NCBI RefSeq assembly: GCF_965363235.1
Contig: NC_134848.1
Coordinates: 64,670,681 to 64,734,680 of the forward strand
Length of the DNA: 64,000 nt
Source of the DNA: Mytilus galloprovincialis
Lineage: Eukaryota > Mollusca > Bivalvia > Mytilida > Mytilidae
Direction of reading: 5' to 3'
Below the pieces are notes generated by a model. The model did no database searches. It had not been told where the DNA came from and saw nothing but the letters and a program-made list of their open reading frames with translations. Positions 14,069 to 52,415 of the stretch are shown here, in pieces. The translations under genes were made by a program, and so were the position numbers. Position 1 is the first letter of the stretch. Each line of letters starts with the position of its first letter.

Positions 14069-16788
14069 TTACAACTTAGGACGAAGTCCCTTGTGTCTTT
14101 GTCTGATAGTAGAGGAATAAGGCATGGAAGACGACATTAAGGAAATAAATTCTGAAACATGAGAACTTCTGTTTGGCACTTGTTTGTGTGATATTTGATG
14201 TAAAAGACTCTCATCTGTTACGTTTGTTTGTTCAGCGTTGTTGCTACCTTCTTCAAAATACCCCTCAAGGACAGCATAATCATTATCATCAGTGATGAGT
14301 TTTGAAAAGTTTATATTATAATCTGTCAGTGGAATGTTTTTCTGTCGGCAGTATGAATTAAACCAATATTGATTAAACTTAGTCGTATCTGTTGACCCAT
14401 GTGGCGGACTTTGATGTATTTTCATCCATATTCTGTTCAAGTCCTTTTCTGAGAACTTAGTTGTTTTGTGTGTCTGACCGCTAGATGCAGATATATTGTG
14501 TCCCATTTTTAATGATGAATGCGGTCCATTTATGATTGTCGATTTTTCAATTTGAGACAATGACATCTTTGTATTTGCAAATTGTCCGACATATTTGCTG
14601 AACCTGTTTGATTTATGTTTATCAATAGAGGACGACAAAGTTGCGTTCGTCTCAACATATTGCATTTGATCTTCCTGCACGCTAGTGTGTACCAGAAGAG
14701 GTTGCTGTGTTGTGATATGCTGTTCTATAGTTTCATTTACTCCGTTCTCGTCATTTTTAACATTTATTTCCGCTTTTTGATTTTGTTTCACGATAGGTAT
14801 CGAATAAATGTATGGGTTATAACAATATGAGTATTCTGCGCCTTGTGGGAAAATGTATGGCTTTATATTTACCTGATATCGTGCCATATATGGATCTTCT
14901 GTTTTAAACCGGGAATAGTAATCCATCCGTTCATATTCCCTTTTTTGTTTGTAATATCTCGAGCTAAACTCTGATGAACCTGAATAGGGTGATTGCATGT
15001 TAATTTCTGTTACTGTTAGTTCAGGCTTCTTTTCAGATTGTGTTTCTTCCAGCATTGCTTGGGTACTAGTATACTGTATATCTATGGTAGCAGTTTGTGT
15101 AGATTGACATACAAATGGAAAATTACGCGTATACTGAGTCTCGTTTTGAAAAGTAGAGTTTGTATTCTTTTCAATGTTGTCTGTAATTGTTATTGAATAT
15201 TCATTAGAAGAAATTTCATGGGTCTGTGTGAATTTATCTACGAGATGATATACATAAGTGGAGTGTTCCATCTCACGTGTTGGGAACTCAAGAATATGCT
15301 CTACATTGATACGCTGATCACTTATTTTCACACTTCTGACTGTCGACTGATTGCGACACTGTTCGATACATAATGGATTCAGCGCTAATTTTTGACAATT
15401 GACAGAATCATCGGTTTTAATTCTCCGTCGCCATAATGAACAGTCTGTCATAATTTTTATAACTACCAAAGCAAGTATAAAAACAGCAAGAAGGCATCCG
15501 ACAATGATTTTCATGTTGCTAAAATCTGTAAAACAAGAATTCAATGCAGGAAATTTGTGTAATATAAAAGTATTGTTATGATTTTGTCCTTAACCACTAT
15601 TTTTAACACAAAAAATACGAAGATGTCGTATGATCGCCAATGAGCTTCAAATTAAAATTCAGACAATTTTGCGAGAATTAATTTTACTCATGATTCAACA
15701 ATGAAAAACATAGCAATAATGATTTCAGAAAACAGAGCAATTATGATTTCAGAAAACAATTTTTGCTGTAAAAGTTAAGATCTGCGAATTTATTTATGCA
15801 AAACATATTCCGCCACAACAAGCTCACTAATTAAAGCATTGTACAAATATTTGAATTACAATTAAAGTCAACAAATTTGTATGGAAAGTTTTGTGGAATT
15901 TACATATCTAATGATCAGTAAATGACTGAAATTGATTCCGTTCTACATTATCTTTATTGATAAGCGAAATAGTTTTTCTATTGTTTCTTCCAATCTCGAT
16001 GATAGTATACATCCTATTTATTTTCTTTTGATCTCCAGTATTTGAGGATATAGTACAGTTGCTATTTTACGGATTTTTTCCTTAATCTTACTGACTGATA
16101 ATTTCCATTCTTAGCACAGTAGAGTGATATCAAAAATTATCCCTAGAAACTAAGGGAGCAAGTGTCCGTTGCCAATGAAATTAACAACGTCGTGATAGGT
16201 GAAATAGCGCTAAATGGATTACCATTGGCCATCTCAACTCGTTTTCTTTTCTCTCTCTCGCCGGCCGTACCAACTTAAGCGATAAAATCAATATCGTTGA
16301 GATGATCAACGATTATCTATATATATCGGGTTTTAAATATATGTAATAATATATAATATGCAAACAAAAAAAGCTCACACACACACTTAAATTTTCAGAA
16401 TTTATTCTTTTAAAAAGGTACTGTAAAACTAGAAATTATCGCGAGGTATTTATTATTGCGAAAAATGCGAAAGAGTTAAAAACGAAATAATTTAAACTTG
16501 CATTTTGAAATATTTTATATAACTTAATTGTTGTCCATTCGTTCGATGTGTCAATCGATTTTGCCATTTGACTAGGGACTCTCCGTTATGAATTTCCCTC
16601 GGAGTTTAGTATTTTTTGTGATTTTTACATTTTTTTTAAATTGAATTTTTCTCAAAATCGTAAAAATTAAAAGCTCATTGAAGTCTATAATAACAAAAAC
16701 GCAATAGTAAATGCACGCAATAATTTCTGAATTTACAGTAGAAAAAAATGCGTAACACTTAAATCATTTGTCGTTTTCACTCACCCAT
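14069..16788 (-). CDS. Gene A: single-pass membrane protein with long cytoplasmic tail (paralogue of gene B)
   Basis: Two exons, read on the minus strand: 16788-16785 (ATG plus G) and 15525-14069. The acceptor is a TTTTACAG tract and the donor is GTGAGT. The joined product is 486 residues. It begins MDFSNMKIIVGCLLAVFILA, with a membrane helix at about residues 8-27 followed by RRR, so the N-terminus should face outward with almost no ectodomain. The tail aligns with gene B in several blocks (LNPL, SNEYSIT, MDYY, EKDL.RIW, KSN, GQF). It keeps two TQT tripeptides (about 101-103 and 144-146) and degenerate ones in the same ten-residue register. Compared with B it lacks about 75 residues after the helix together with the intron there, and about 24 residues at the C-terminus. 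I do not recognise a named family. A signalling or trafficking adaptor role is inference. Confidence 0.88.
16060..16325. mobile_element. Foldback (hairpin) element, diverged copy
   Basis: It matches the element at 33653-33920 in order: GCTATTTTAC, TAGAAACTAAG, TTAACAACGTCGT, CATCTCAACTCG, then the inverted arm ATCGTTGAGATGATCA. It lies in intron 1 of gene A. Confidence 0.65.
16545..16640 (+). repeat. Dispersed repeat, CTCGGAGTTCAGTA family (partial)
   Basis: Shares GTCCATTCGTTCGATGTGTC, TTTTGCCATTTGACTAGGGA and CCTCGGAGTTTAGTATTTT with the other copies. Confidence 0.6.
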
Positions 16789-19616: not shown

Positions 19617-22600
19617 CTAGCTAGGATACATTGTAGAACGATGAAGTTCGTCTGGTCTCATAGGTACATCATCAGGTAAAATATCTACAACTTGTGGTTG
19701 GAGTCTCTGATTTCTGTGCATCATAGTATCAGCATCAGGTCTGTAAGAGCCCATATGAGAAATAATCCCAGAAAACCGGGTGCTTCCGTTGTTCGGCTGG
19801 CTATGCGATGACTGATTTAATAGTCCTCCATTCTTAACGTTTGTTTGTTCAGAGTGGTCACTTACATCTTTAAGATATCTCTGAAGAACACCAGTTTCGT
19901 TTTCACCAGAGTAGATATTTGATTCATTTGTATCGTAATCGGCTGGTGGAATTTCTTGCACATTAGTGTCATATCGAACTTGCTTTAAGTAGTCAGGTGG
20001 TACTTCTAACTTAATGGACCCATTAGATCCATGTTGACGAGTTTGGTGTCTTGTATTCCATATCCTATGCAAGTCCTTTTCTGAAATAAGAGCTTTCCCA
20101 TATTTCATACCGCTAGATTTTGATTTATTTTGTCCTTGATTTGCTGATGATCGAGGTCCGCCATTGGCTTTTGATTGATTCTTTGCATTCATTCGTGAAA
20201 GAGAAATTTCATTATTTGAAAACTGTCCGAAATAATCTTTGTACTTGTTAGATTTATATACATCAACAGCGGATGATTTTGTCACATTCGTTTCAACCTT
20301 TTGAGTATTATCTTCTCGCACGATAGTTTGTACGGGAGGAGGTTGCTGTATAACGATATACTTTTCAATAATTTTAGTTTTTTCTACTTTTTCTCTTCGT
20401 TTCTTCACAGGTTTTTCCGATTCCGAAGATGCTACTGAATACACATCCTGATCGTAATAATATGGATATGCTTCGTCTGTTGGGTACATAAAAGGCATCA
20501 TATCAGCCGGATAAGGTTCCATGTAAGGATATTCCTGATGTGGGCCGTAATAGTAATCCATCCATTGTTCATATTGTTTTTCGTGATGATAATTATCTGA
20601 TGATTTTATACGGTCTGAATCTGATGGATATGAAACTGAATAGGGTGTATGAGTGTTTGTTGTTGTCACTGTTGGTTCTGGTTTCCTTTCAGGTTGTGGT
20701 TCTTCCTGTATTGTTTGTATTGTTTGAGTAGACTGAACTTCTATAGGAACAGTTTGTGTAAATTGAGATTCAGATTGAAAAGTCTGAGTAGCCTGATTTT
20801 CCGCTTGGAAAGTTTGTGTACATGAACTTGAATTGATTACTTTATTTTGAACATGTTCAATAATCGTTACAGGATTATTCTCAACTAACGCTGTTATTGA
20901 ATATTCATTAGAAACATTAGAAGGAATATCTAGTGTTTGTGTAGTCATATCCACTTGATTAGACGAATCGTCAGAACTAGCATCTATTTCACTTGTTGGG
21001 TACGCTATAGTCTGTTCTATGTTATCTCGCTCATCACTCGGTTGTACAAGTCGGCCTTCCGGTTGATAGAGAAGTTTTTCAGCATTCAATGGATTGACAG
21101 TATAGTATTCAACAGCCAATGGTTTACCATCTCCGACTTCATAGTACCGTACGGAGGATATACCATTCTGTTTAGTGTGAACTGGTTTTGTGGCAAGATA
21201 ATCCAGACTATTTTGGCTGAGTTGTCTACTTTGTAATGTTGTAGAAACTGTTTGCTCTTCAACAAAACGAGTACTAGAAATAAAAACAAAAAATTTGCAA
21301 GACCATCAATAATAAATTCACATACAGTATTAAATATGCAATGTGTATGAACTTAATCCATTGTTTATGTAACATACATTATTTACACATCATTATCATG
21401 TTTAGAATGAAAAGAAGCATTCGATTAAATTATTTTCCTAAATACAGTGTAGGAAGTTGCAATGACAATCGATTAAATACTCATTAGTATCTCTAGAATA
21501 TCTCTAGAAATGAAACCTCCACCTGCAGTAACATCCACTTATTGGTCGTAAATAAACTCAGCATGGATACAAAGTTTAAGAATTTGTGACCTAGACTATA
21601 ACTGATATACTGTCAGGTTACTTCTTCGTGCGTACTTTCAAAGGTACGCATTACTGTAAGTGCAATATTTTTTTCTTTCGTGGACATAACGTTGCATTAT
21701 ATAACTATAAACGAAACAATGAATGTTTACAGTCATATTGTGGTAATAGTGCCGTTTACGACTGTCATACAATTGAGCGTTTTAGCTAGCTATAAAACCA
21801 GTTTTAATCCACCATTTTCTACATGGGAAAATGCCTCCACAAAGTTAGGAATATGACAGTTTTTATCAATTCGTTTGATGTGATCTTGCCAATTGATTAC
21901 GTACTTTACGTCGGAGTTCGGTATTTATTTTAATTTTTCTTTTGATTACGAAATTTGATCAAGGATTGAAAGTTTGAAAATTATTTCCATTACCTATCAT
22001 CAGGTTCAGTTTTTAAATGATGAAGCCATATTTTGTATCTATTTCTAAATTTATACTAAAAATGTTCTGTTATAGAGAATCTTTTTCAAATGTTATTAGA
22101 AATTGTTATACAACATACATCTCCACCGACCGATTTTGTCTTGACACGGAAGATAAGATATCCTATGTGAGGAATTGTATTCAATCATTTAAATCAGAAC
22201 CAGAGCAGAAAAAATAATGGAAAAAAAAGAATATATCAAGCTTTTCTAAAAGGATGTGTTGCAAATAATCAAAATCTAGATATTATTTTTTTAGACCGTA
22301 CGGTGACTTATAAATGGTAATTTCTGTGTCATTTGGTCTCTTTCATAACATTGTCTTATTTACAATCATTTCACATCTTCTTTTGAATATCTACTTTATA
22401 TATAGTACTATCTTATTCACATCGACACTTGTACACATCCCTTAAAAATCATTTAATCATAAGGTATTCATACCGCTTTCCTGGATTCGCTTTCAGGGAA
22501 TTCAGGTAACGAAACAGTCTGTATTTTCTTTGTCTAAAAAGAATAAGATACCGACGATTATAATTCAATTGATATAGAATGTGCAAGCTGTCGCTAATTT

Positions 22601-25600
22601 AAATTGATATGTAAATGCATAACTACAATATTAACGTCCGAATTTTGGTTGCATTAATCCGTAGGGATCGGTTGCAATCACATTCCAAATTATCTTTTAT
22701 ATAGATCATAGACTTATTGTTATATCTAAAGAACATCAGTGTGTAGACGTTGATAGGCGATGGAGCGCCTTAAGTCAATGTTCAATTCTTTATAATTAAT
22801 TGAAAACAACAGTGCGATTACAACTATTCATTGATGAGTGAAGGTTAGGCTGTAGTCAATTAACAATTCTGTTATATTGAATTAAAACAACAGTGTGTAT
22901 TTCTTGATAAGCAATGGAGGCCTTAAGTCAATTTAGATTTTTTTAATAATTAATTAAATTGGTTATTTGCCTAAAGGTTTTATGTGGTAAAAACCTTATT
23001 TTATGTCGGTTTTTCTTGAAAAATTATTTTGTTTATGTTTGTTCTAAAGTTCTGTTAATTTCGGGGTCTTCAACGATAACACATCGGTTTTTTTTTAGTT
23101 TATTTAAAGACTTTCATTATTACAAGTAGAATATTATCATATGTAATTTGAATTTTGAAAGACAGAGTTACATTTAAAGTTAGTTTTATAACGAGGTAGA
23201 TAGGTCAAGACTAAACCAAATTAAGGATGTTTGCTGCTCAGTTTAAAAAAAAATAACTTTTCATAAAACTAGTATGTATTGATAGGGAATTAATTGAGGA
23301 ATCAAAACAACAAAAAAATATAGGGGTCAATGTGCTTGTTTTCGAGATATTAACCATTGGAATTTTGGCGGGAAAATGTTCTCTCTTGATTTTTCATAGC
23401 TTCATCATTGACCAGTTAAAAATCTCAAGTACTATTAAAAAATAAATAAAATTTTATAAGACTTTTACAAATGACTTTTAATCATACATGTAAAAGATTT
23501 ATAAAAAGAAAAATGGGGGTTCATGGGGAACAATTTTTAAGGCATTCAAATGGATAAAACCAGAGGATTCCGAAAATCTGACAAAAATTCAAAAACATGA
23601 CAAGCAGACATCCTTAAGCATCGAGCATAGTTTGCATCCTATTCTGCATACCTTTCTATGATATATATTCAGATCATGTCAACCCCTAGCTTCCCTTCCG
23701 AAAATTACTTACTTTTTAGCAGGAATAAATTTCTGTGCTTTAAGATATCCTTTTATATTTGTACTGAAAGAAATGCATATTTTCATTACAAAAAAGTGTC
23801 ATATTCATAAATGAATGGAGCAAAATGTGTGCGTACAATGAACAATTTTTTTTTCTTATACAATATTTTGAAAATAATCATCAATATGTATTATTCTTTT
23901 GAGTGTTGGTTTAACTTGACAAAGCTTTAGGGTGAAAATGAACACATTCGAAGTTTAAATTCATATATATATTTTACTAAATAGTGTCTATATAGTAGAA
24001 AGTGACAATAAAATATTGTTACAAAATAAAAATAAACTTTGTTGAATCAAAACAAAAAAAGATGTGTATGTTGAACAAAAACAGGTTAATTCCAATATCT
24101 TCTACATAATGATATGGATATACCAAGTGTGAAATATGACAGTTGTTTTCCATTTGTTTGTTGCGTTTGAGGTTTTGATTTTGTCATATGAGAAAGGAGT
24201 ATCTGTCTTAAATTTTCCTTGTAATATTTTGTCTATTTTCCTTTATACCTGCCATTAACATCCATTCTGTTGTTTGCTCTCGCTTTTCGTATTTTCCGTC
24301 GTCGTAGACAAAATTCTGCCACAATTATTATAATTATCAATGCGATTACGAAAACACCAACAAGGCAGCCAATCAAGATGTTTATACCGTGGGAATCTGA
24401 AAAGAAAAGAGATTTTGTTTTAAAATATGCGTTTGATAAAATTCTTGTACTTTAATTTTCCTATGTTTTTTGTAAATATCCAGTGATTTGATTTCAAATT
24501 GCTCAATATAACAAACTATGGTGAAATTTCTATATTTTAGTTGGTTTTCGTAATCACTTTGCTTTTTCATCACGTTCATATTCTCTCCTTTTTGATTGCT
24601 TTAATATGAATTTTAAAGTATGATTTCTGACACGGTTTGTCGGAAGTCGTTTATCTACTACTATGGCAACTCAATCAGTGATACAGGCCACACAAACATT
24701 TGTAAAGACAAGATTTCTATTTCGGTGTTGCATATGATACAGGGTGTGTTAACTCGTTTTTGAACTTGAGAACAACCCTGGATTTTAATGGGGTTTCCGT
24801 TTGTCTCTCTTTTGTTTTAAATGTTGGTTGCTCTTTAAACGTTTGTTACATTTTTCCATGTATTGTCAGTGTATTTCAGTCATAGAGATGACAGCATTAG
24901 TGATATTTCAATCAACCTCTCTAGTGTCGAACCGTGCTATAAATAAAAAATGTAAATTAATATACTTGCTAAATGAAGTTTTTTCTACGCGTGTCACATA
25001 ACTAGCTATAAAACCAACTTAAACACCCCGTTTTCTACACTAGAAAATGCCTGTAAAAGGTCAAGACTTATTCAGTGGTTATCGATTCGGTTGATGTGTC
25101 CACTATTGGATTTTCGCTTCAGACTTTTTCTATTTTTCTACTTACAAGTCTGAATTACAATATAGCGGATATAATATTAACTATATCCAATATTTAATAT
25201 AGAATTATAATTGTTTCAAATGGTTAAAAAAGCCATAGTACATATGTTGATTCAAAAAGCATGCGGTCGTTTACTGGTTATCTATTCCCAATCTAATTAT
25301 TTTACAAAATAAACCCGGACTTTCCAGGTTAGGAATCTTATAAATAACTAGAAAAATCCCTCGAGAGTGAGAAAATTATTTATGTTAAAATGATTCACTG
25401 AGTTGCAGTCTTTCGTAGAGATCTATTAGAGTGAAACATGATAATTTGGAAAACAACACAAAAAATGCTATCGTTAGTTTTGTTTAAAAAGATAATAAAG
25501 ATGAATAATAGTTCAACCATTTGTTGTTAATGACTTTTGAACATATTTCACATAGCCTTTTCAATAATATGTAATGAATATAATACATATACACTAGAAA

Positions 25601-25623
25601 AGGTAAAAATGTAACTCACCCAT
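19617..25623 (-). CDS. Gene B: single-pass membrane protein with TQT-repeat cytoplasmic tail
   Basis: Three exons on the minus strand: 25623-25620 (ATG plus G), 24396-24249 (membrane exon) and 21273-19617. Phases agree at both joins (G|AT and AG|T), giving 602 residues. The start is MDSHGINILIGCLVGVFVIA, with a helix at about 8-28 and then RRRK, so the predicted topology is a tiny outside N-terminus and a long inside tail. Five TQT tripeptides lie at about 162, 203, 213, 223 and 233; the last four are exactly ten residues apart, separated by Gln/Glu-rich linkers. Next come a Tyr/Pro-rich segment (about 285-331), a basic stretch, and blocks shared with gene A. TQT is the anchor of many dynein light chain LC8 ligands, so a multivalent LC8 partner is a reasonable hypothesis. 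The long open frame begins upstream of its first in-frame ATG, which is explained by the upstream exons. The family is not recognised. Confidence 0.9.
21785..21950 (+). repeat. Dispersed repeat, CTCGGAGTTCAGTA family
   Basis: Contains CTAGCTATAAAACCAGTTTT, CACCATTTTCTACATGGGAA, GGAATATGACAGTTTTTAT and GTCGGAGTTCGGTATTTAT. It lies in intron 2 of gene B. Confidence 0.65.
22474..22518 (-). other. Possible 45-bp cassette exon in gene B intron 2
   Basis: On the minus strand an acceptor ending AAAATACAG and a donor GTATGA bound 45 bases, a multiple of three. Spliced between the membrane exon and the tail exon in their existing phase (two bases in, one base out) it stays open and adds 15 residues: the junction codon AGT (S) becomes AGA (R), followed by LFRYLNSLKANPGKR. 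The insertion would lie just inside the membrane. Another frame of the same 45 bases also reads openly (TVSLPEFPESESRKA) but does not fit the flanking phases. Use in transcripts is unknown. Confidence 0.4.
23221..23617. mobile_element. MITE with TTAA ends (TTAAGGATGT family)
   Basis: The left end is TTAAGGATGTTTGCTG and the reverse complement of the right end is TTAAGGATGTCTGCTT. It is 397 bp, has no coding frame, and lies inside intron 2 of gene B. Confidence 0.8.
25003..25145 (+). repeat. Dispersed repeat, CTCGGAGTTCAGTA family
   Basis: Contains CTAGCTATAAAACCAACTTA, CGTTTTCTACACTAGAAAAT and TCGGTTGATGTGTCCAC. It lies in intron 1 of gene B. Confidence 0.6.
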
Positions 25624-25850
25624 CTTCTATCGAAAAGTATCACTGCGAAATTTTCATCATCTTAAAGAAAATTATATATTTCCGATTGGAAACAAGGCGT
25701 AAAATGTATATGTAATAGAAAATATATCTTGCGTATCTGGGCGGAAACGTCGTCAGAAAAAGTGAATTTAAATTATTATATTGCATCCATTTAATAAAAA
25801 AAAAAATATAAACTCCCCAGCAACATGTTACATATTTACAAACATATCAA
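25624..25850 (-). promoter_or_regulatory. Upstream region of gene B, conserved with gene A, containing the same uORF
   Basis: This is the counterpart of the gene A upstream block. The uORF at 25657-25640 (minus) reads ATG AAA ATT TCG CAG TGA, with one further in-frame ATG directly before it. Its stop is again 16 bases from the main ATG. The matching spacing and frame in two diverged paralogues suggest a retained 5' UTR element, although shared ancestry alone could also explain it. Confidence 0.5.
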
Positions 25851-27150: not shown

Positions 27151-27464
27151 TGCCTCATCAATTTTTTAAATCACGCAAAAAACAAACATAAAACTAGACA
27201 AATTGATGACAATGGATGAATTTCATTTTTGCTGGTAATTTATAGATCTTCAGAGAACCTTTGTTCCAACCTTTATCTTATATAAATTTTAAACGTATGT
27301 GCATATGTCCTTTAATCGAGTTGGTTTTGTGTCAGTAATTTCGTTATTCATGTGCGTGGGTGTGGGTGTGGTTATGGGTGTTTTTTTTTTATTATTATTT
27401 TCTATTTTAAAATGTAAGTATAACTAGTACTTTATATGTTTTTCTCACACTGATCTCTAAGTTT

Positions 27465-28932
27465 GAATCTATTTTTTTCCCTCATTTGTAAGGATGTGAT
27501 CGCATTCAGCCTAACTGCAGTCGAGCGATTCAATTCAAGTAAGATAAATGTATATCTATAAATCAAACTCGTTTTATATTTTTTCGAAAATTAAAACACT
27601 TTAGATTTCTTCGGTTTATTAAATGACCCAAGTGCAAATACATACAAATGAATATTATTTACATAGATACTTGTTTTATAATTTAAATGATTTCGTTAAA
27701 AATAATGTGAAAAGCCATGAAAAACATTTTTGGCAAAAGTAGCGTTTTCATCTTTAATGTTTATGTCTGATTTCTTTTGAAGTAAAGCAATGATATACAA
27801 AGTTTTAAACAAATTGCAACTCCGGCTTTGTAAAGTGTGATGACCTTGAATTTTTATTTTGAAGGTCGTTATTTCTTAAGACATTGACATTCATTTGTAT
27901 TTAAGGTATTATACGTATATTTTCATTTAATTTGTTCAACTTTTATACCACAAGATGTTTAGCTAACAAACACTGAAAACTTCATTTGTGTTAGCCTCTA
28001 TAATTATAATATCGATTAACATATTTTCTTGCTTTTCATCTGTTTCATAAAGCATCGACGATAATTAACTTTTCCAATTTAAATCAAATTGTAAACCTGA
28101 TTTCCACTATAAAATGGTCGAGTTAATATCTGAGGTAATTAAAGTGGTTTCAGTTGTATCCTAGGTTATTACCTTACCGTATTTTTCACAACTTTTATTG
28201 CTTTTAAATTTTTTTTTAGAAATAATAATAGCCCCTATGAATTATTTCTATTGTATTATGACAAATACTGCAATTCTTTTGGATCAAAGCGCTCCAGTTG
28301 AAGTCAATTATTTGCCGTTCTCGTAAATAAATGCACTTTTATATTCACGTGAAAGAACGGAGCAAACTCAGCTAGTGACATGCTTAAACTATTTACAATA
28401 AAGAATTTAGATGAATTAAAAAAAATATTTAATTATATTTAAAAAGAAATTACTTATGATACATTTTCTCATCGTTTGTTTACGTTTTCTTGTTTTGAAG
28501 ACTTTCGGTTTAACATTCCTGCATTACATTCTTATTTTCTTACGTCATCGTTCAATGACTTCGTGAAACTCATTCATAAAAACGTGGGTGTAATATCGCA
28601 TAAGCCGAAACAATACATTCATATTTTACCACGGGTATGTACTCAACGCGTTTGAAGAACGTCATATTAGAATCGAAATTATATAGCCAATAACTGTTTA
28701 GTGTCTTTAAATATCAGCTGTATTTGTACAAGGCTAAGAAGAGGTGTAGTGCGAGCTTTAGCGAGCTATTACTCATGTTTCGAGCCGAATACAAATACAG
28801 CTGATACCTAAAGACACTAAACAGTTATTGTCTTTATCCTGCAATTAATTCTGTATATTGTTTGTGCTTTGAAAGTCACAAAAACTGACATTAGTTGCAA
28901 TTTTTTTTCCGATTTAGAATCCCTTGAGGCCC
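27465..28932. repeat. Near-identical tandem duplication, unit 1
   Basis: A 1468-base unit from GAATCTATTTTTTTCCCTC to CCCTTGAGGCCC, followed directly by a second copy. The copies differ by scattered single bases and small indels only. No gene is seen in it. Confidence 0.95.
28689..28829. repeat. Inverted repeat inside unit 1
   Basis: The left arm starts AATAACTGTTTAGTGTCTTT; the right arm ends AAAGACACTAAACAGTTATT. The arms are about 40 bases, imperfect, with a loop of about 60 bases. A hairpin or small foldback element. Confidence 0.85.
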
Positions 28933-30385
28933 GAATCTATTTTTTCCCTCATTTGTAAGGATGTGATCGCATTCAGACTAACTGCAGTCGAGCGATTCAA
29001 TTCAAGTAAGATAAATGTATATCTATAAATCAAACTCGTTTTATATTTTTTCGAAAATTAAAACACTTTAGATTTCTTCGGTTTATTAAATGACCCAAGT
29101 GCAAATACATACAAATGAATATTATTTACATAGATACTTGTTTTATAATTTAAATGATTTCGTTAAAAATAATGTGAGAAGCCATGAAAAACATTTTTGG
29201 CAAAAGTAGCGTTTTCATCTTTAATGTTTATGTCTGATTTCTTTTGAAGTAAAGCAATGATATACAAAGTTTTAAACAAATTGCAACTCCGGCTTTGTAA
29301 AGTGTGATGACCTTGAATTTTTATTTTGAAGGTCGTTATTTCTTAAGACATTGACATTCATTTGTATTTAAGGTATTATACGTATATTTTCATTTTATTT
29401 GTTCAACTTTTATACCACAAGATGTTTAGCTAACAAACACTGAAAACTTCATCTGTGTTAGCCTCTATAATTATAATATCGATTAACATATTTTCTTGCT
29501 TTTCATCTGTTTCATAAAGCATCGACGATAATTAACTTTTCCAATTTAAATCAAATTGTAAACCTGATTTCCACTTTAAAATGGTCGAGTTAATATCTGA
29601 GGTAATTAAAGTGGTTTCAGTTGTATCCTAGGTTATTACCTTACCGTATTTTTCACAACTTTTATTGCTTTTAAATTTTTTTTTGAAATAATAATAGCCC
29701 CTATGAATTATTTCTATTGTATTATGACAAATACTGCAATTCTTTTGGATCAAAGCGCTCCAGTTGAAGTCAATTATTTGCCGTTCCCGTAAATAAATGC
29801 ACTTTTATATTCACGTGAAAGAACGGAGCAAACTCAGCTAGTGACATGCTTCAACTATTTACAATAAAGAATTTAGATGAATTAAAAAAAATATTTAATT
29901 ATATTTAAAAACAAATTACTTATGATACATTTTCTCATCGTTTGTTTACGTTTTCTTGTTTTGAAGACTTTCGGTTTAACATTCCTGCATTACATTCTTA
30001 TTTTCTTACGTCATCGTGAAACTCATTCATAAAAACGTGGGTGTAATATCGCATAAGCCGAAACAATACATTCATATTTTACCACGGGTCTGTACTCAAC
30101 GCATTTGAAGAACGTCATATTAGAATCGAAATTATATAGCCAATAACTGTTTAGTGTCTTTAAATATCAGCTGTATTTGTACAAGGCTAAGAAGAGGTGT
30201 AGTGCGAGCTTTAGCGAGCTATTACTCATGTTTCGAGCCGAATACAAATACAGCTGATACCTAAAGACACTAAACAGTTATTGTCTTTATCCTGCACTTA
30301 ATTCTGTATATTGTTTGTGCTTTGAAAGTCACAAAAACTGACATTTGTTGCAATTTTTTTTCCGATTTAGAATCCCTTGAGGCCC
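28933..30385. repeat. Near-identical tandem duplication, unit 2
   Basis: About 1453 bases. It lacks 13 bases present in unit 1 near 28550 (between CATCG and CGTGAAACTC-type flanks). The small open frame at its end has no support as a gene. Confidence 0.95.
30142..30282. repeat. Inverted repeat inside unit 2
   Basis: The duplicate of the unit 1 hairpin with the same arms. Related words (CAGCATAGAGATATATGTAG, GCAGGATAAA) recur at 30930-31010. Confidence 0.85.
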
Positions 30386-32160
30386 GCGTAGTAATATTAA
30401 AATCACATTTAACGGAAGACGGGTTCGCAAAAACAGAATCTCGAATGGTCAACAATAATACATCGCTCAAGGTGAATAATAATCTATTTTAACAAAATAA
30501 CTTATTTCAACAGTAAAAACAAATAACAAAACATTGTCTAATTTGATACAGAAGTGTATGAGTTGTCCTACGCTTCAGAATTTTGAACTGAACTTGACAT
30601 TCACTTAACATATATGCTGCAATTGACATGATTGATTTTATTACACATGTACACATTCAAGTTTTGAAATCGATGATTGTCGTAGTAGGAAAAACTGCTG
30701 TTCATGTTTGTCTGTAATCAGAAATTTGTTTTAATACTTATTGCTCTAAAGAAATTAATGTTTGAAACCAAAAAAAAACGTATAACTAATCGTTAGTGCA
30801 CATCAAGTCAAACAATACGTCATTGAAATGTGACTGCAATACACATTCTGAGGTAACGCAAGTTCATACAACACTCGTCAAAAGCAAAACACAAGCTTGG
30901 TCCGGAAGTGAGCGGAGCTGTAAAGCGATATCTGGATAGTATTCAGATACAGCATAGAGATATATGTAGGGCTGTATCTGTATAGTAAGACACCTAATTG
31001 CAGGATAAAACTTTAGATATGAAACGGAATTGCTGTATATGTATTATCCCTTATTTCAAGTTTAGCTTTTAATGTGATTTAGTCTTCCAACTGTTTTGAT
31101 TCGAGCGGTACGTCCCTTATACATGTTATAAGTCTTGCGTCAAAGAAGAGAGCGTCTGGCGTACCAAATTATGAAGTGTTATCTTTCATTTTTTTGTAAT
31201 TGGCGCTACCTTTAAAATCAATTGCAAATTTGAATGCCATTTCCTTTAATCTATAGATTCGTCCCAACCTGCTTCAGTTACTTTATTTAGTCAAATAACA
31301 TCGGACATCAAGTTGCAATAGAAACGTATGAAAATAATGTGTCTACTTCCCAGGTTTTATGTGTTTATCTTATGTAGTCTCGTGTATATCTTTAAAAGCA
31401 TAGTTTTGATTGCTCCGTTCTGTAAATTTTACGATACATTGTCTAGACAAGGGTCTGTTCATAGCTCTTATAGATATGTATATTGTTCAACATGATGACT
31501 TTTGTTTTTTTTCATAAACATATACACAACATACTTTTTGTATTTAGTTTGAACCCCATAAAAAATGTTTCTTTATTTTTATGTAATGGAATATCTGTTA
31601 TAGGACAATACATATACTAAATATATATGGTTAATTTCATGTTTTACATTGACTACTTCGTGGACTATTTTAAATTCTAAATCCGTTTTAATAGTTAAAA
31701 AATTGATTTTGTGAAATTTGATTCAATTTATTTATAATTCTCTATGTATGATAGAATACATGGTATGGTAGGAATTTACTGTCATAACGGTACAAGTAAA
31801 TACGGAACATCAATATGGGTACTTCATGCATGTATCCAATATCACATGATATTGAGACTTCTATCCATTCATTTGACTTGACAACTATGAAATAAAGTGC
31901 AATATTATCTATAATTACATCCCGTATCACGTACTATATATTTGTAATTAAACAATACTTTCCATAGTTTTACTCTCCAGTCAATCTTTGAGGCATTGGG
32001 TTTTGGACACAGGCTTCCGACACTTCTCACTATACTTAAAATGTAGTTTGACTGAGTTAACTAGTTTTGGTTGATTTTAAAATACCTACAAAAATAAGGA
32101 TGACTTATATTCAGGTCTATGCTTTTTCAACAACCAAATATGTGTACGTATTTTGTAAAA
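30386..32160. other. Non-coding stretch
   Basis: AT-rich, with no convincing exon. A hairpin-related remnant lies near 30930-31010. Confidence 0.4.
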
Positions 32161-43979: not shown

Positions 43980-46900
43980 TTAGAATTTGGAATTGAAAAC
44001 AGCATCAAATCCAAAATTGTTATCCCTGAAAAAGAGAGAGAAACATAATAGATTTATATAGTACAGAAACCCGTTTCCCGTTTGTAATTAAAAAAAAGGT
44101 AAGTTTTTCTTAGAAAAATCAACATATTTGATATTTAGATAATACTGACAAAAATTTGAAAAAAAATTAAATGACGTTGAAACTACACACAATACATTTC
44201 GAATTGTAGTTATTGGGTTTTGTAGTTATTGAGTTTTTTGTAGAGTCTCTTGTTTGTCTTTTCGATTTTCACTTTTCTTGCCATGGTATTATGAGGGGTG
44301 GTAGGACCTTTATCGGGACTCCGGGATCGGCTTTTTTTTAAGCTCGGGATTTCGGGATTGACCCTTTCGGGATCCGGGAATTCTGTTTTTACGAATTTCG
44401 GTCCTCGAGATTTTGTGTTTTTAAGCCCGGGATTTCGGGATTTCGTTTTTTCAAGCCCGGGATTTCGGGATCAGGACCCCTCCTATCACCCCTCTATTAT
44501 CCTTTTATTTTCAACATATGAATTTGAATATCCCTTTAGTATATTTGTCCTCTCGATCTTTGAAAGTGTTATCAATGAAAACCTTTCCCAAATCTCTGTA
44601 TGACCCAAATCGAGATAGAGGTAATAAGTGTGTTATTCTTTACCTCTTCCATATAGCAGATTGAATTATTTTGAGAATAAAGTTTTTTTGTGACATTTAT
44701 ATCAAGAACAAGTTTTTGCAAAAGAAATAAATACATTTCCTTTGTTCATTGTAAAATTGGATTTTGAATTTGGACTAGAGAAAAATGTGAATTTGCTTTC
44801 AAATATTCTCAATTGCATACATGTACTTATAATTAACGAATTAGATTTAGAGTCTCGTGACGGAACGGTTTTGTTCTTATGAAGGACACATTTATGCATG
44901 TGAATATCAAATAATCAAGAAAATCAGATATGATTCGGTTTTGCATATCTATATCATCGTTTATCATGTGTTGATCTACTTAACCTTGTCAAATACTGCG
45001 GTAGATAATGTTCTCATGCTAATATTCTATTTTTTTTTAAATATATATATGGAATTGGACATTCGGATGTAGTTAACCATGGTAAGCAAACGATGCTGGA
45101 ATGAAAACGGCATCATCAGTTTAATAGAAAATATAAAAAGAAATTATATTAAAATACTTACACTGGTCTCCAGAGAAACGGGTCTCTATTGTGAAGAAGA
45201 GCTCTTCTGTAAAAACAAAAATGGCATGAGTTATATGTTTTCCAAATTCACCCGTACATTTTTTTTCAGAAATTCCGCTGCTACATGGTAAACACTCAAT
45301 CGATTGTAAACAGGACTTTACATCATGTATATCAAGGATTGTACGTTTAGGAAGTTAATTTTGTAATGAGCTATATTCTAAACAATCAAAAGGAATAAAG
45401 TTACTGAAATCCCAAAATGATTTCATTTTCCGTAGATTGATGCATTAGATTTGTAATAAGTTTCTCTTTTATATCGATGTAGTTGTAAGACTCGTGTTCA
45501 AATCTTTTCTATAAATCTTACCCGATTGATACTGTTTCCTTTAAAAAAAATGAAATTGAATCAGTTTCATCAGCCTTTATGCTCTTTGACCAAATATGAA
45601 TTTTAAAACAGAAGCCTAAAAAACAAAATTCCTAAAAACTGAAAAAGATTCTTTAAAAAATGACTAATAACTTACTTGTTGAATTCTGTTAAACTCTTCA
45701 AATCATCTCGCATGGGCCAGTCACCTTGGTAACTGAAAAGAAACAACTACTATTACAGTTTTTTCTTTATAAAAAGTATTGACAATCTAAAATGGTTCTA
45801 TTCATGTAAAGTGTCATTTAAATTGGTTTATTAATGCACTGCAAGTTCTGATGTAAGATCTGTAAACAGTCTATTCTCTTTGTCTTTAAATACTATACTT
45901 TTTTATGTGCGGTGAGGGAGAGGAATGGACAGATTTCACCTTCGATAACACAAATGAAATACTATACTTTTTTATGTGCGGTGAGGGGAAGAGTGGACAT
46001 ATTTCACTGTCGATACTACAAACGTTACTACTAACGTAACCGTGCGTCCTATTCTCTTGTGTTGTGTATTTCTCTCTATCTTATCAGTGGACAGTGGGGA
46101 TTTGCTGGGATTTAACAGAATATGGAATAATAAAACCAAGAACAGGAAAGACCAGCCAAAAAAATAAAAATGGATAATGATTGAATGATAAATATAGACT
46201 ACAGACTGATGGGGAAATATAACGAATTGAGAAAATGTCATAACATTTAAGAATACAAATGTAGACCTCACCCCTCACCCCCTGTCCCATCTCCTCTCCG
46301 TCCATTATGTATATTTTGAATACGTTTTAGTATTAAAAAAAAAAAGGAGAATATGTAAGCCATAGTTATAGAGTATAAATGTAACAGAAACGAATCTAAC
46401 TCATTGTTACTACTTTCAATATTTGTCTATACTATAATTTATCATTTAGGTTCATGTTTGTTCTTTTAGTCATGGTTTTGTTTGTGTTTCCTCGACTCAT
46501 TGTTTTAATTGCTTTTCCGATTTTTAATGGGGTTTGTGCTGCTCAGTTTTGAGTTGTCTATGTTGTGTTAATGTGTATTGTTGTCTGTCTGTCTTTTATT
46601 TGTTTTTCGTTTTTTGTCATGGCATTGTCAGTTTGTCTCGAATTATGATATAAAAAAGAAGATGTTGTATGATTTCCAATGAGACAACTGTCAACAAGCG
46701 ACTAAAATGACACAGACATTAACAACTATAGGTCACCGTACGGCCTTTAACAATGAGCAAAGCCCATACCGCATAATCAGTTATAAAAGGCTATGAGTTT
46801 GGATATCACTTTAGTATCTTTTATCTCTCCTTTTGGTATTATCTCTTTTGTGTTTATAACATACATAACTTACACGCCTTTCGGTTTCTCGTTTGGATTC

Positions 46901-49824
46901 TTCGAATTATTCGGTTTGTCTGAACCATTTTGTGACGATTTCAGAAGAGTCGATTTATCTGATGATACATCATGAACGAATGGTCTGACATTTCTCCGTG
47001 GAACGGAGTCGTCGCTGAATCTTCGTTTTTCTTCCGTTTGATCGTCATTTGATCTTGATTTCAAATATCTGGACGGGATGCGCACTTCAACAAAAACGTC
47101 ATCATCAATATTATTTCCCCGTCTTACGGCTTGTGTCGAAATGACCTTCCGATCGTCCCATCCATTTTGACTCATGTTTGTGGCTGAAAAAGTACGACGA
47201 TCCTCTGAGTCGGAATTATTTTTCACTCTGTCTGAAATTTCTCTCTGAAATGAGTATCGGTTTGAAATTGGATGAACAAATTGTGAATAGCTATTGTCAA
47301 CATCACTAATCATCGACCCTTGACGATATTCAACCGGATTTTGTCTTCTTTCACCTTTGAAGGGAGCACTATATAGCGGGACAGAAGTTTTACTTGACGA
47401 AAGATTCTCCGTTTTGGATACTGTTTTATTTTCTGAATCTATTTCTGGTTTTCCTATAAAATAGTCATTGCCATCCCAAATCGATTTACCGGTATGGATG
47501 CCCGGTTCAGAATCCGGGTTTCTGAATGGGAACTCTCTTTTTCCAATCATAAAAGAATGAGTCATTGCTGGCCATGCAGCAGCATAGGACGGAGGTTTAT
47601 ATTGTGTTTCACCAATCATTTCTCCTGGGTTTCTGAAGTACAAAAATAATATTATTATACTTCACGTTAAAAAGACAGATTTTAATTGGTTAATACGAGG
47701 GAAAATGTGTAATGTTACCCCCTCGTGTAGACCAATAAAAATTCACGGTTATTACTATTATAATGGCGGTATCGTTGTTATGTACATGAAGTCAAACTTT
47801 ATTAAAATGTTACAGTACTTTTAATTTCAAATTTCAAATGACAGAACATTCAGTCAAATTAATTAATTAACACATAGATGAAAAGGTGATAGAACAGATC
47901 GCTACCCCCGAGTGAACAGAGGTCTTGTCGTTTTCCAAGAAAAAAATAGCATAATGATACCGAACCTACAAATATATACATATTGCCAAGACTGTATCTC
48001 TACAATCCTGTGTTATATCAGGAATAAATAAATAGAAAATGATGTGGTATGTATACCAATTAGACAACTCCCCATCCAAATAACAAATAAGTAAGTTTAA
48101 AATTAGTCTTTGTTTAATGTTATGAAAATAATATTCAATGTACTTAAATGTTATTTTATTCAGTATCTACACACATTCCAAGTGTTTCGATAATATAACA
48201 AATAATTCTTTGTCAAAAATGAAAATAAAAAAATAAAAAAAATTGGTTTTGGCTGATCCTTGAGAGTAATCATATTAATATAAGTGTTTAAAAGTAAAAC
48301 TTACTGTCCTTTCGGCGTGTTTTCATCTTGCAATTGATTGTAAAATTTCTGTCTGAAAATAAATTGTTAGCTTTTAATAAATAATTTGCAAATACAATGT
48401 AATGTGTCCAATTTGAGATACATTTGGACGTCAATTTAACAGCAACCAACAACACTAGAATCACAATACTTCAACCAACGATATTCAAAAAATAGTTGGA
48501 ACATATAATAATCGTTTTATCATTGTTGAAAAACGTATGCAAATTATTTTAACGACAAGCAGGTCCTAAATGCATTGTTGTCCGGTAAAGGAGTGATATT
48601 TGATTATACCTTTTAAAAATTAAGGTAAATATACCCTCAGACACATATGGCCTAAACTGTATTCGACACACACTTCTAATGATCTTCAGCATTGTATTTT
48701 GATTCGATCGAAGTGGCGAATATTCAGCAAACAAAATAAAGCGTCAGGTGTAGCAGATTATAATATGTCTGGAGTCTTTCATGAGTTTTTATATCAAAAT
48801 ACTTACTGATCAGATTTCGCTTTTCTAGATTTTTTTCGCATACAGCATGCTATCAGGATTATGATAAATAGAACCAGAGCCACGCCCCCTGCCACAGCTC
48901 CTATTAAAATCTTCGTTCCTGTAGACAACCCATCGGATGTCGAGTTAGCTTCTGAAATAAAAAAAAATAAAAAGCGTGAATTATTTTAAAGGCCTGGATG
49001 AGGGTTCTTCACTTCTGTTTTCTTCAATTCGTAGTCGTTTTTCTTTATTCTTTGTTTCTTTTCTCCATTATTCTCTAATCTTAATATTTTATATTCTGTA
49101 ACAATATCCTCCTGTTCTCTATTTCATACCCCCCCCTTTTCCAATTACAACACATATCAATAAAACAGAAAACCAACAACTAAATCGATCAAGAAACACA
49201 TATTTCAGAAGTTTTTAGTTTTGCATAATCTATATCTTCCCTTATATCAAAATAAAACTGAAAAAAATTCAGTATGTATGTACAAAATAAACGTAGCGTG
49301 AAACAAATATGATTTTCAGCAACAAACTACAAGCCCTAAGATACAGACTCCTGACTTTGGGACAAGCATTCCTCATCCTTTTGGTTTAACAATTTTATTT
49401 TTCTTTATTTAACCAGCAATCCAGGTCTGGAAATTAACAATTTTATTTTTCTTTATTTAACCAGCAATCCAGGTCTGAAAATTAACATTTTTGCTATTGT
49501 TCTTCATACTACATGTAGTATCTTAAAGATGAAAAAAACTAGTGTACAGGAATTTGAAATTAAATGTTTCACTGGTTATTCTTTCGTCCCATTTATGATA
49601 TATGCAACAGATGTACTCACTACAATATGGTTTGTCTGTAAAATCCCATGATCCTCCAGTCTGACACGTGACGGTACTCTGACCAATAAGGGTATAGTCG
49701 TCCAAACAGAAGAGGTTAACAGATGTTCCTTCTGTTCTGGTGTATGTGGATAGCCGCAGGTCACCTTTGTTCAATGCAGTGGTCACATCACTATTAGAGT
49801 TCAAATTGTTGAGTTTCGGACAAT
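43980..49824 (-). CDS. Gene C: sushi (CCP) domain type I membrane protein, 5' end unsettled
   Basis: Minus-strand exons, all with agreeing phases: 49824-49621, 48951-48807, 48352-48305, 47632-46874, 45732-45676, 45206-45162, 44025-43980 (stop). About 434 residues are visible. The first exon encodes one complete sushi domain, CPKL...NLFC...TVTC...GGSWDF...KPYC, with the four cysteines and the conserved Trp. A short NSTSDG-type stalk and a helix (about residues 83-105, ILIGAVAGGVALVLFIIILI) are followed by CCMRKKSRK and a polar tail of about 330 residues. The tail has a PPSY motif (a WW-domain ligand type) close to the membrane and ends GFDAVFNSKF. Sushi domains usually bind proteins or glycans outside the cell, and the ligand here is unknown. 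No convincing signal peptide exon was found. The open frame over the tail exon ends in a stop only because it reads through the splice donor. Confidence 0.85.
44293..44494. mobile_element. GC-rich MITE with TATTAT target duplication
   Basis: The left end is GAGGGGTGGTAGGACC and the reverse complement of the right end is GAGGGGTGATAGGAGG. TATTAT flanks both sides. The interior is a tandem of CGGGATTTCGGGA-type motifs, far richer in GC than its surroundings. It lies in gene C between the last two exons. The open frame over it is a repeat shadow. Confidence 0.8.
45890..46020. repeat. Short tandem duplication
   Basis: TACTATACTTTTTTATGTGC followed by GGTGAGGG occurs twice, about 70 bases apart, in an intron of gene C. 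Confidence 0.85.
46470..46640 (+). mobile_element. Diverged copy of the retroelement tail
   Basis: It contains GTCTATGTTGTGTTAATGTG, TTGTCTGTCTGTCTT and CATGGCATTGTCAGTTTG in the same order as the other tail copies. Confidence 0.45.
49385..49486. repeat. 51-bp tandem duplication
   Basis: AACAATTTTATTTTTCTTTA then TTTAACCAGCAATCCAGGTC appears twice in direct succession. Confidence 0.9.
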
Positions 49825-51184: not shown

Positions 51185-51754
51185 GTTTTCATTCAAATTT
51201 CTCAATTTAATTAATTTTACAATAAATCATTTCCGTTAATATAACCAATATAAGCCAACGTCAGAAGAATTAATGACCCGGACACCAATATGTTGCAAAG
51301 TAAAGGTGAATATCGATAAAAGTCTTGGTGCGTCTCAGAACCAACGCCCAGATAAATATTTATTACTTATTTATTTTGAAAGTCACTGTCATAGCAGCTA
51401 CCAAATTAAATTTTAATATTTGTAATATAATAGTATTATAATACTTTTGGGCGTAGTACTAGAATTTGAAATATTTTATATGCATTTTATAATTTAGTCG
51501 TCAAGTTATGTGAAAAACTGCAATTTATGTAAACAATTACATTAACAATTTCTATTTCATTTTCGTAAATTCACTTTAAAACGTGAATGACTTTACATTG
51601 TATTATGTTGACAACAAATAGTTTACAAATCTCATGAAATTATAATTGATCTTTTATGTATTTAATTCAATAAAATTAATCCTCTCTCTCCGGATTCATT
51701 TGCTTTAAAATATTGTTTAGGAGGATGATGATGCAAAAAGCTCTTATGTGTCTA

Positions 51755-52415
51755 GTGTTCCTTTCAGAATGTGTTCATGAACCCTTGACCTATTGGTCTA
51801 ATATGTTTCTGGTGTTCCTTTCAGACTGTGTCCGTGAACGCTTGACCTATTGGTCGAATATGTTTCTGGTGTTCCTTTCTGACTGTTTCCGTGAACTCTT
51901 GACCTATTGGTCTAATATGTTTATGGTGTTCCTTCCTGGACTGTGTCCGTGAACTCTTGACCAATTGTTCTAATATGTTTCTGGTGTTCCTTTCAGACTG
52001 TGTCCGTGAACTCTTGACCTATTGGTCGAATATGTTTTTGGTGTTCCTTTCTGACTGTGTCCGTGAACTCTTGACCTATTGGTCTAATATGTTTATGGTG
52101 TTCCTTTCTGGACTGTGTCCGTGAACTATTGACCAATTGTTCTAATATGTTTATGGTGTTCCTTTCAGACTGTGTCCATGAACCCTTGACCTATTGGTCG
52201 AATATGTTTCTGGTATTCCTTTCAGACTATGTCTGTGAACTCTTGACCTATTGGTCGAATATGTTTCTGGTGTTCCTTTCAGACTGTCCGTGAACTCTTG
52301 ACCTATTGGTCTAATATGTTTCTGGCGTTCCTTTTAGACTGTGTCCGTGAACCCTTGACCTATTGGTCTAATATGTTTCTGGCATTCCTTTTAGACAGTG
52401 TCCGTGAACTCTTGA
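51755..52415. repeat. 57-bp minisatellite, about 11.5 copies
   Basis: GTGTTCCTTTCAGACTGTGT starts every 57 bases (51755, 51812 and on). Since 57 is divisible by three, runs translate as 19-residue repeats (VFLSDCVRELLTYWSNMFL), but several copies carry one-base or few-base indels that break the frame, so I do not call a gene. Confidence 0.95.

Follow-up and report, generated by a model that had tools for sequence, protein, structure and literature searches.

Several neighbouring LC8 motifs in one chain are found in Nup159 and Chica, neither of which is membrane-anchored, and among membrane proteins with LC8-binding peptides ROR1 is a single-pass receptor. The gene described here (gene B) lies in a 64,000-nucleotide stretch of Mytilus galloprovincialis DNA, hereafter the window, and resembles Nup159 and Chica in having candidate motifs that neighbour one another. 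Like the probably disordered tail of gene B, the disordered LC8-binding domain of ASCIZ/ATMIN carries a number of TQT sites that lie close together and are weak one by one (PMC5963919); however, ASCIZ is a nuclear transcription factor, and its linkers vary in length, whereas those of the gene B array are constant at two residues. The seven Drosophila ASCIZ sites given in that source have E, P, D, C, H, C and R at position +2, none of them hydrophobic, unlike the array (PMC5963919). Kir4.1 is a membrane protein that co-purifies with LC8, for which its unstructured N terminus has a site; unlike gene B it is a tetrameric multi-pass channel, with one predicted motif (YSQTTQTE) and no array (PMC11999606). 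ROR1 and SLC9A2 are likewise membrane proteins whose peptides bound LC8, ROR1 weakly, but the published tables hold a single tested peptide for each, with T and S at +2, and no array (PMC6607443). Titles and abstract openings of open-access papers, in part the best matches of longer lists, showed no single-pass membrane protein with more than one LC8 site; the nearest membrane case among them is Kir4.1 (PMC11999606).

In its layout, gene B recalls the transmembrane adaptors LAT, PAG, NTAL and LAX, described as having a very short outer part, one transmembrane helix and a long tyrosine-bearing tail (PMC4861716). Most of these adaptors, not all, are described with a juxtamembrane palmitoylation motif. 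The gene B model has the same few outer residues, single helix and long tail, in the predicted topology, and one cysteine stands at the inner helix end both in gene B (EFCLRRR) and in its neighbour gene A (TDCSLWRRR), with no CxxC there. Unlike the adaptors, gene B has no Pfam match and no GRB2-type YxN; for SH2 proteins, its 36 tyrosines offer no YxN and one YxxM motif. Gene B is, as far as its predicted protein goes, built like a transmembrane adaptor, and we do not class it as one because it has no GRB2-type motif.

The gene B model and its TQT sites comprise the following features.

25620..25623, minus strand: start of gene B, an ATG and one further G ahead of the donor GTGAGT; the start-exon block is identical to gene A in 62 of 75 columns.
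24249..24396, minus strand: gene B transmembrane exon (INILIGCLVGVFVIALIIIIIVAEFCLRRRKIRKAR...), with acceptor AG at 24397-24398 and donor GT at 24247-24248; the frame runs into exon 3.
19617..21273, minus strand: gene B exon 3, a cytoplasmic tail of ~552 residues to the stop, in a 562-codon open frame with acceptor TTTCTAG before 21273.
20934..20942, minus strand: site 0, a lone fifth TQT (VDMTTQTL; MTTQTLD), its TQT kept at the aligned place in gene A.
20703..20822, minus strand: four-unit, ten-residue TQT array, sites 1-4, CTQTFQAENQ / ATQTFQSESQ / FTQTVPIEVQ / STQTIQTIQE, in the gene B frame.
25640..25660, minus strand: short upstream reading frame, MMKISQ and a stop, separated from the start codon of gene B by 16 bases; gene A has MKISK and a stop at the same distance.

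The joined exons of gene B form a single 602-residue frame that begins MDSHGINILIGCLVGVF, the start and transmembrane exons reading M-D-S-H-G. In both genes a phase-1 junction, G^AT, restores an Asp codon whose G comes from the start exon, and both predicted proteins begin M-D directly before the transmembrane helix. The first-pass annotation had described gene B as a single-pass protein with no ectodomain, and the gene model drawn from the sequence bears this out through a conserved 5' exon that ends in ATG-G in both paralogues. A missed upstream ectodomain was considered, the transmembrane exons of A and B having phase-1 acceptors as in gene C (below), and was rejected because the ATG-G exon supplies the missing base and completes the Asp codon in both genes; an alternative isoform of A or B might still include an upstream ectodomain exon. 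From the basic residues that follow the helix we infer that the tail is placed inside. AlphaFold returned a mean pLDDT of 29.5 for the gene B tail, with 547 of 551 residues below 50, on an alignment of two sequences in which A was the sole relative.

The upstream frame common to A (upstream of 16788, minus strand) and B reads MKIS[Q/K] and a stop, five to six codons in all, and possibly serves translational control. Elsewhere in the window, gene C (46870-49822, minus strand) combines an exon at 49622-49822 that matches Sushi (Pfam PF00084, E 3.9e-7) with a transmembrane exon placed by eye near 48807-48951 and a tail open reading frame at 46870-47643; it looks like an ordinary Sushi-type receptor with a phase-1 junction before the helix, as in A and B.

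Site 0 and the array lie in one open frame, with site 0 placed 41 residues before the first array TQT, so that the anchor spacings are 41, 10, 10 and 10. Where at least two TQT-type anchors per chain mark a multivalent LC8 ligand, gene B has five, four of them at spacing 10. In 200,000 shuffles of the whole 602-residue protein (mean 0.24 TQT), neither five or more TQTs nor a period-10 run of at least three ever arose; when the 90 residues around the array were shuffled locally, at least four TQTs appeared in 57 of 200,000 trials and a period-10 run of four in none. The array and spacing that the first-pass annotation had reported from the letters are thus far beyond chance in these shuffles, and the array is a real, non-random feature retained in gene B. 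Its units are old and diverged: any two of them share 15-20 of their 30 bases, with 4-7 matches among the 10 third positions, and the array is absent from Tandem Repeats Finder output at score 50. Between the four units, the TQT codons differ by 10 synonymous and no amino-acid changes in 18 comparisons, against 3 synonymous and 32 amino-acid differences at the remaining seven positions of the unit (42 comparisons), a contrast that is partly circular and biased since the units were spotted through their TQT. Because the units have diverged and yet the TQT is invariant, our reading is that selection probably holds the triplet in gene B. This constancy matches the pattern of a fixed anchor with variable flanks described for LC8 ligands (PMC5963919).

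The flanks of the array sites fit LC8 poorly. Residues given as unfavourable are a hydrophobic one at +2, an aromatic one at -2, a hydrophobic one at -4 and a small one at -3 (Jespersen et al. 2019, PMC6607443). At +2, sites 1-4 have F, F, V and I, all hydrophobic or aromatic; in addition, Ser occupies -3 in site 1, Phe -2 in site 3 and Val -4 in site 4. Each array site thus breaks at least one of the four rules (large -3, non-aromatic -2, polar -4, non-hydrophobic +2), rules that have exceptions among real LC8 binders. In two tables of PMC6607443, 0 of 7 peptides with a hydrophobic +2 bound, compared with 23 of 44 others (Fisher p 0.012), a count that covers 51 peptides out of 66 (those left out, 15 non-binders, have no [TSVIA]Q[TVI] anchor) and that includes two peptides twice (with and without added DD) and an off-register BSN peptide, without which the others stand at 22 of 41. 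For TQT anchors alone, the corresponding figures are 0 of 4 and 18 of 32 (p 0.10). Moreover, the TQTFQA of array site 1 is also present in a CCL25 peptide listed as a non-binder of LC8 (PMC6607443).

A scorer distinct from LC8Pred, trained on 48 peptides (the two repeat entries and the BSN peptide removed; four weak binders counted as binders) with a leave-one-out AUC of 0.846, points the same way. It gives the array sites -4.56 to -6.01, under all nine held-out known binders (-4.34 to 6.44), and gives 0.44 to a tenth, the phage-selected VSRGTQTE; it also rates real binders low (BMF -2.27, Kir4.1 -2.48, QT7 -4.34) and gives -1.44 to the dynein intermediate chain of this genome, which carries an ordinary-looking SKETQTA site. 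In leave-one-out scoring, 1 of 22 training binders fell as low as site 2. The site-by-site motif scoring that the first-pass annotation had proposed as a check turned out unfavourable to the array, on this substitute for LC8Pred. When +2 is left out of the scorer (AUC 0.76), the array sites rise to between -0.67 and -2.51, with 2 or 3 of the 22 training binders at or below them, and site 0 reaches 2.44. Much of the case against the array leans on position +2.

That position is not decisive in all published ligands. The BMF peptide EDKATQTL binds LC8 with a Kd of 0.75 µM and has Leu at +2, in a phage study that describes only a slight preference there (PMC3078936), and the LCA5 peptide TKGVQTME, with Met at +2, has a Kd of 2.6-8.1 µM (PMC9481538). 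Drosophila ASCIZ peptides bind at 7-20 µM, among them QT4 at 15 µM with Tyr at -2 and QT7 at 10 µM, QT3 being too weak to measure, and the multi-site domain binds at 1.4 µM (PMC5963919). Both QT3 of ASCIZ (PMC5963919) and the CQS site of LCA5 (PMC9481538) are described as too weak as peptides and functional in multivalent chains, and the LC8Pred authors report that three of the true binders with the lowest scores belong to proteins in which several sites lie next to each other (PMC6607443). Linkers of described ligands can be short, with 3 residues in Drosophila ASCIZ, 1 in human ASCIZ and 4 in LCA5; those of the array, counting an eight-residue motif, have 2. The flanks argue against strong individual sites in the array. 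Because of the BMF and LCA5 exceptions, the ASCIZ QT sites and the moderate scores obtained without +2, the array may nonetheless have an avidity-driven LC8 role, at most a weak one.

Site 0, which the first-pass annotation had treated as an extra, is plausibly the best LC8 candidate in gene B. Its sequence, VDMTTQTL, is close to the EDKATQTL of BMF, with Val and Asp at -5 and -4 followed by TQTL, and it breaks only the +2 rule, with Leu as in BMF. BMF shares with site 0 the D at -4 and the TQTL; it differs from gene B in its Lys at -3 and in being, in that study, a single tested peptide with no array (PMC3078936). The scorer gives site 0 of gene B -1.06, above BMF and approximately equal to LCA5, and gives its equivalent in gene A -0.55.

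Gene A, next to gene B, encodes a predicted protein of 486 residues from its start exon and one further exon.

16785..16788, minus strand: start of gene A, likewise an ATG and one further G ahead of the donor GTGAGT; the start-exon block matches gene B.
14069..15525, minus strand: gene A exon 2, transmembrane helix and tail in one exon; 41% identity to B over A-tail residues 46-483.

The two proteins are identical at 195 of 480 aligned residues. Their dN of 0.44 against a dS of 0.84 supports the view that both are coding genes under mild constraint. The array region gives dN 0.40 and dS 0.46 (dN/dS ~0.87 over 38 codons), and by this comparison the array is under no tighter constraint than the rest of the tail. 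Gene A has two TQTs, both at places where B also has one: the site 0 equivalent, where it reads VDKFTQTH, and array unit 3, the only one of the four units with a TQT. Bivalve orthologues with the frame kept and the TQT spacing lost had been named beforehand as evidence against LC8 binding, and paralogue A shows this pattern: it retains the array register while the central Q (Q0) persists in 1 of 4 units and each of the two Ts in 3 of 4.

Wider searches add little to this pair. In the genome itself (1.385 Gb), the B tail at E 0.001 matched itself and A, with no third copy among the best candidates, the only ones that the search scores, such that small or diverged copies could escape. At E 10 the A tail matched itself, B and three weak sequences (E 0.14 to 10), and the array alone matched itself, gene A with an E of 2.0 and two sequences at chance level. 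Besides itself, the transmembrane exon matched A (E 0.006) and, with E values of 0.06 or worse, seven other sequences; three of the seven (L019, L020 and gene C) were inspected as possible relatives and judged to reflect transmembrane composition. Neither tail has a Pfam match, the PDB at E 10 held no match for the array or the B tail, and of 4 pattern matches in viral contigs none was confirmed.

The genome holds 14 Dynein_light matches, and the one compared, L003, is identical to a solved DYNLL2 at 83 of 84 residues; published LC8 binding rules should for this reason carry over to this species. The eight best Dynein_light matches (L003-L010), with the detailed comparison covering L003, form two clusters on a single contig (C5), and LC8 itself has likely multiplied in this genome.

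Taken as an LC8 ligand, as first proposed, the array keeps part of its case: LC8 is encoded, the TQT appears to be held in gene B and the gene model leaves no real ectodomain. The flanks, the scores and the loss of Q0 in A count against it. Because every array site breaks a flank rule and the array anchors are largely lost in A, we do not class the array as an established LC8 ligand; an LC8 ladder at the surface is possible, though not the safe reading. We tentatively favour LC8 engagement of the B tail with some contribution from the array, while rating its chances at somewhat below one half. In this proposal, whose membrane topology, disorder, binding and any function are features that we infer, gene B would be a membrane-anchored scaffold with ~6 outer residues, one transmembrane helix, a basic juxtamembrane stretch and a probably disordered cytoplasmic tail of roughly 570 residues. 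Site 0 would be a plausible single LC8 site common to B and A, at which an LC8 dimer could hold two tails side by side; the array would provide four anchor-only, individually weak TQT sites, filled at most by avidity once the tails were paired. The outcome would be dynamic, partly occupied complexes as in ASCIZ, with no rigid ladder. The fuller version, an ectodomain-less, surface-tethered multivalent LC8 platform in which pairing starts at site 0 and the four constant-spaced sites, their linkers 2 residues long and their hydrophobic +2 tolerated, are then occupied cooperatively, while the paralogue has only two TQTs, we regard as unlikely.

Almost as likely, to our mind, is that the array is instead an old tandem repeat that does not bind LC8, gene B preserving its xTQT-hydrophobic unit to space the tail or to serve a different ligand, with LC8 at most at site 0. 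Position +2 is hydrophobic throughout gene B, L at site 0 included, and it is the same in A in 2 of 4 array units, the F of units 1 and 2 being kept despite the loss of Q0 there; the tenth residue is identical in 4 of 4 (Q, Q, Q, E), compared with 1 of 4 for Q0. The absence of binders among the seven published hydrophobic +2 peptides fits this reading as well, whereas the binding of BMF and LCA5, with L and M at +2, does not. Nor is any partner besides LC8 known to us to read TQT, which weighs against this alternative. Readings as TRAF, calcineurin or RHIM motifs were considered by eye and dropped.

The tail could alternatively act as a phosphotyrosine scaffold like the leukocyte transmembrane adaptors LAT, PAG and NTAL, the array being incidental. 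Such a role would suit the ~6 outer residues, single helix and long tail, an arrangement like that of PMC4861716, as well as the 36 tyrosines in 602 residues and the juxtamembrane Cys; we nevertheless think it improbable, given that neither A nor B has a GRB2-type YxN motif (one YxxM in each), that neither tail has a Pfam match and that tyrosines are kept between A and B at 15 of 31, only slightly above the overall 195 of 480. That the T/Q/hydrophobic repeat forms β-strands and drives self-association or amyloid-like clustering seems very improbable: the alternation of polar and hydrophobic residues in Q/T-rich units and the tenth residue, Q in three units and identical in A and B, agree with it, but the reading is conjecture, and AlphaFold on the two-sequence alignment gave no confident structure (mean pLDDT 29.5).

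If, as we tentatively favour, the array does contribute to LC8 binding, gene B would encode a membrane-fixed LC8 hub with several sites, and its hydrophobic +2 sites would work through avidity and be missed by single-peptide predictors. If there is no binding, the array would be a caution that even a retained series of perfect TQT triplets does not make LC8 sites unless the flanks are right. Genes A and B, with two TQTs versus five, offer a natural comparison.

The window also contains a tandem duplication of ~1.47 kb at about 27430-30500, in which the open reading frames at 27696-27875 and 29163-29342 (minus strand) are identical, and a 57-base minisatellite at 51745-52415, with 11.8 copies and about 90% matches.
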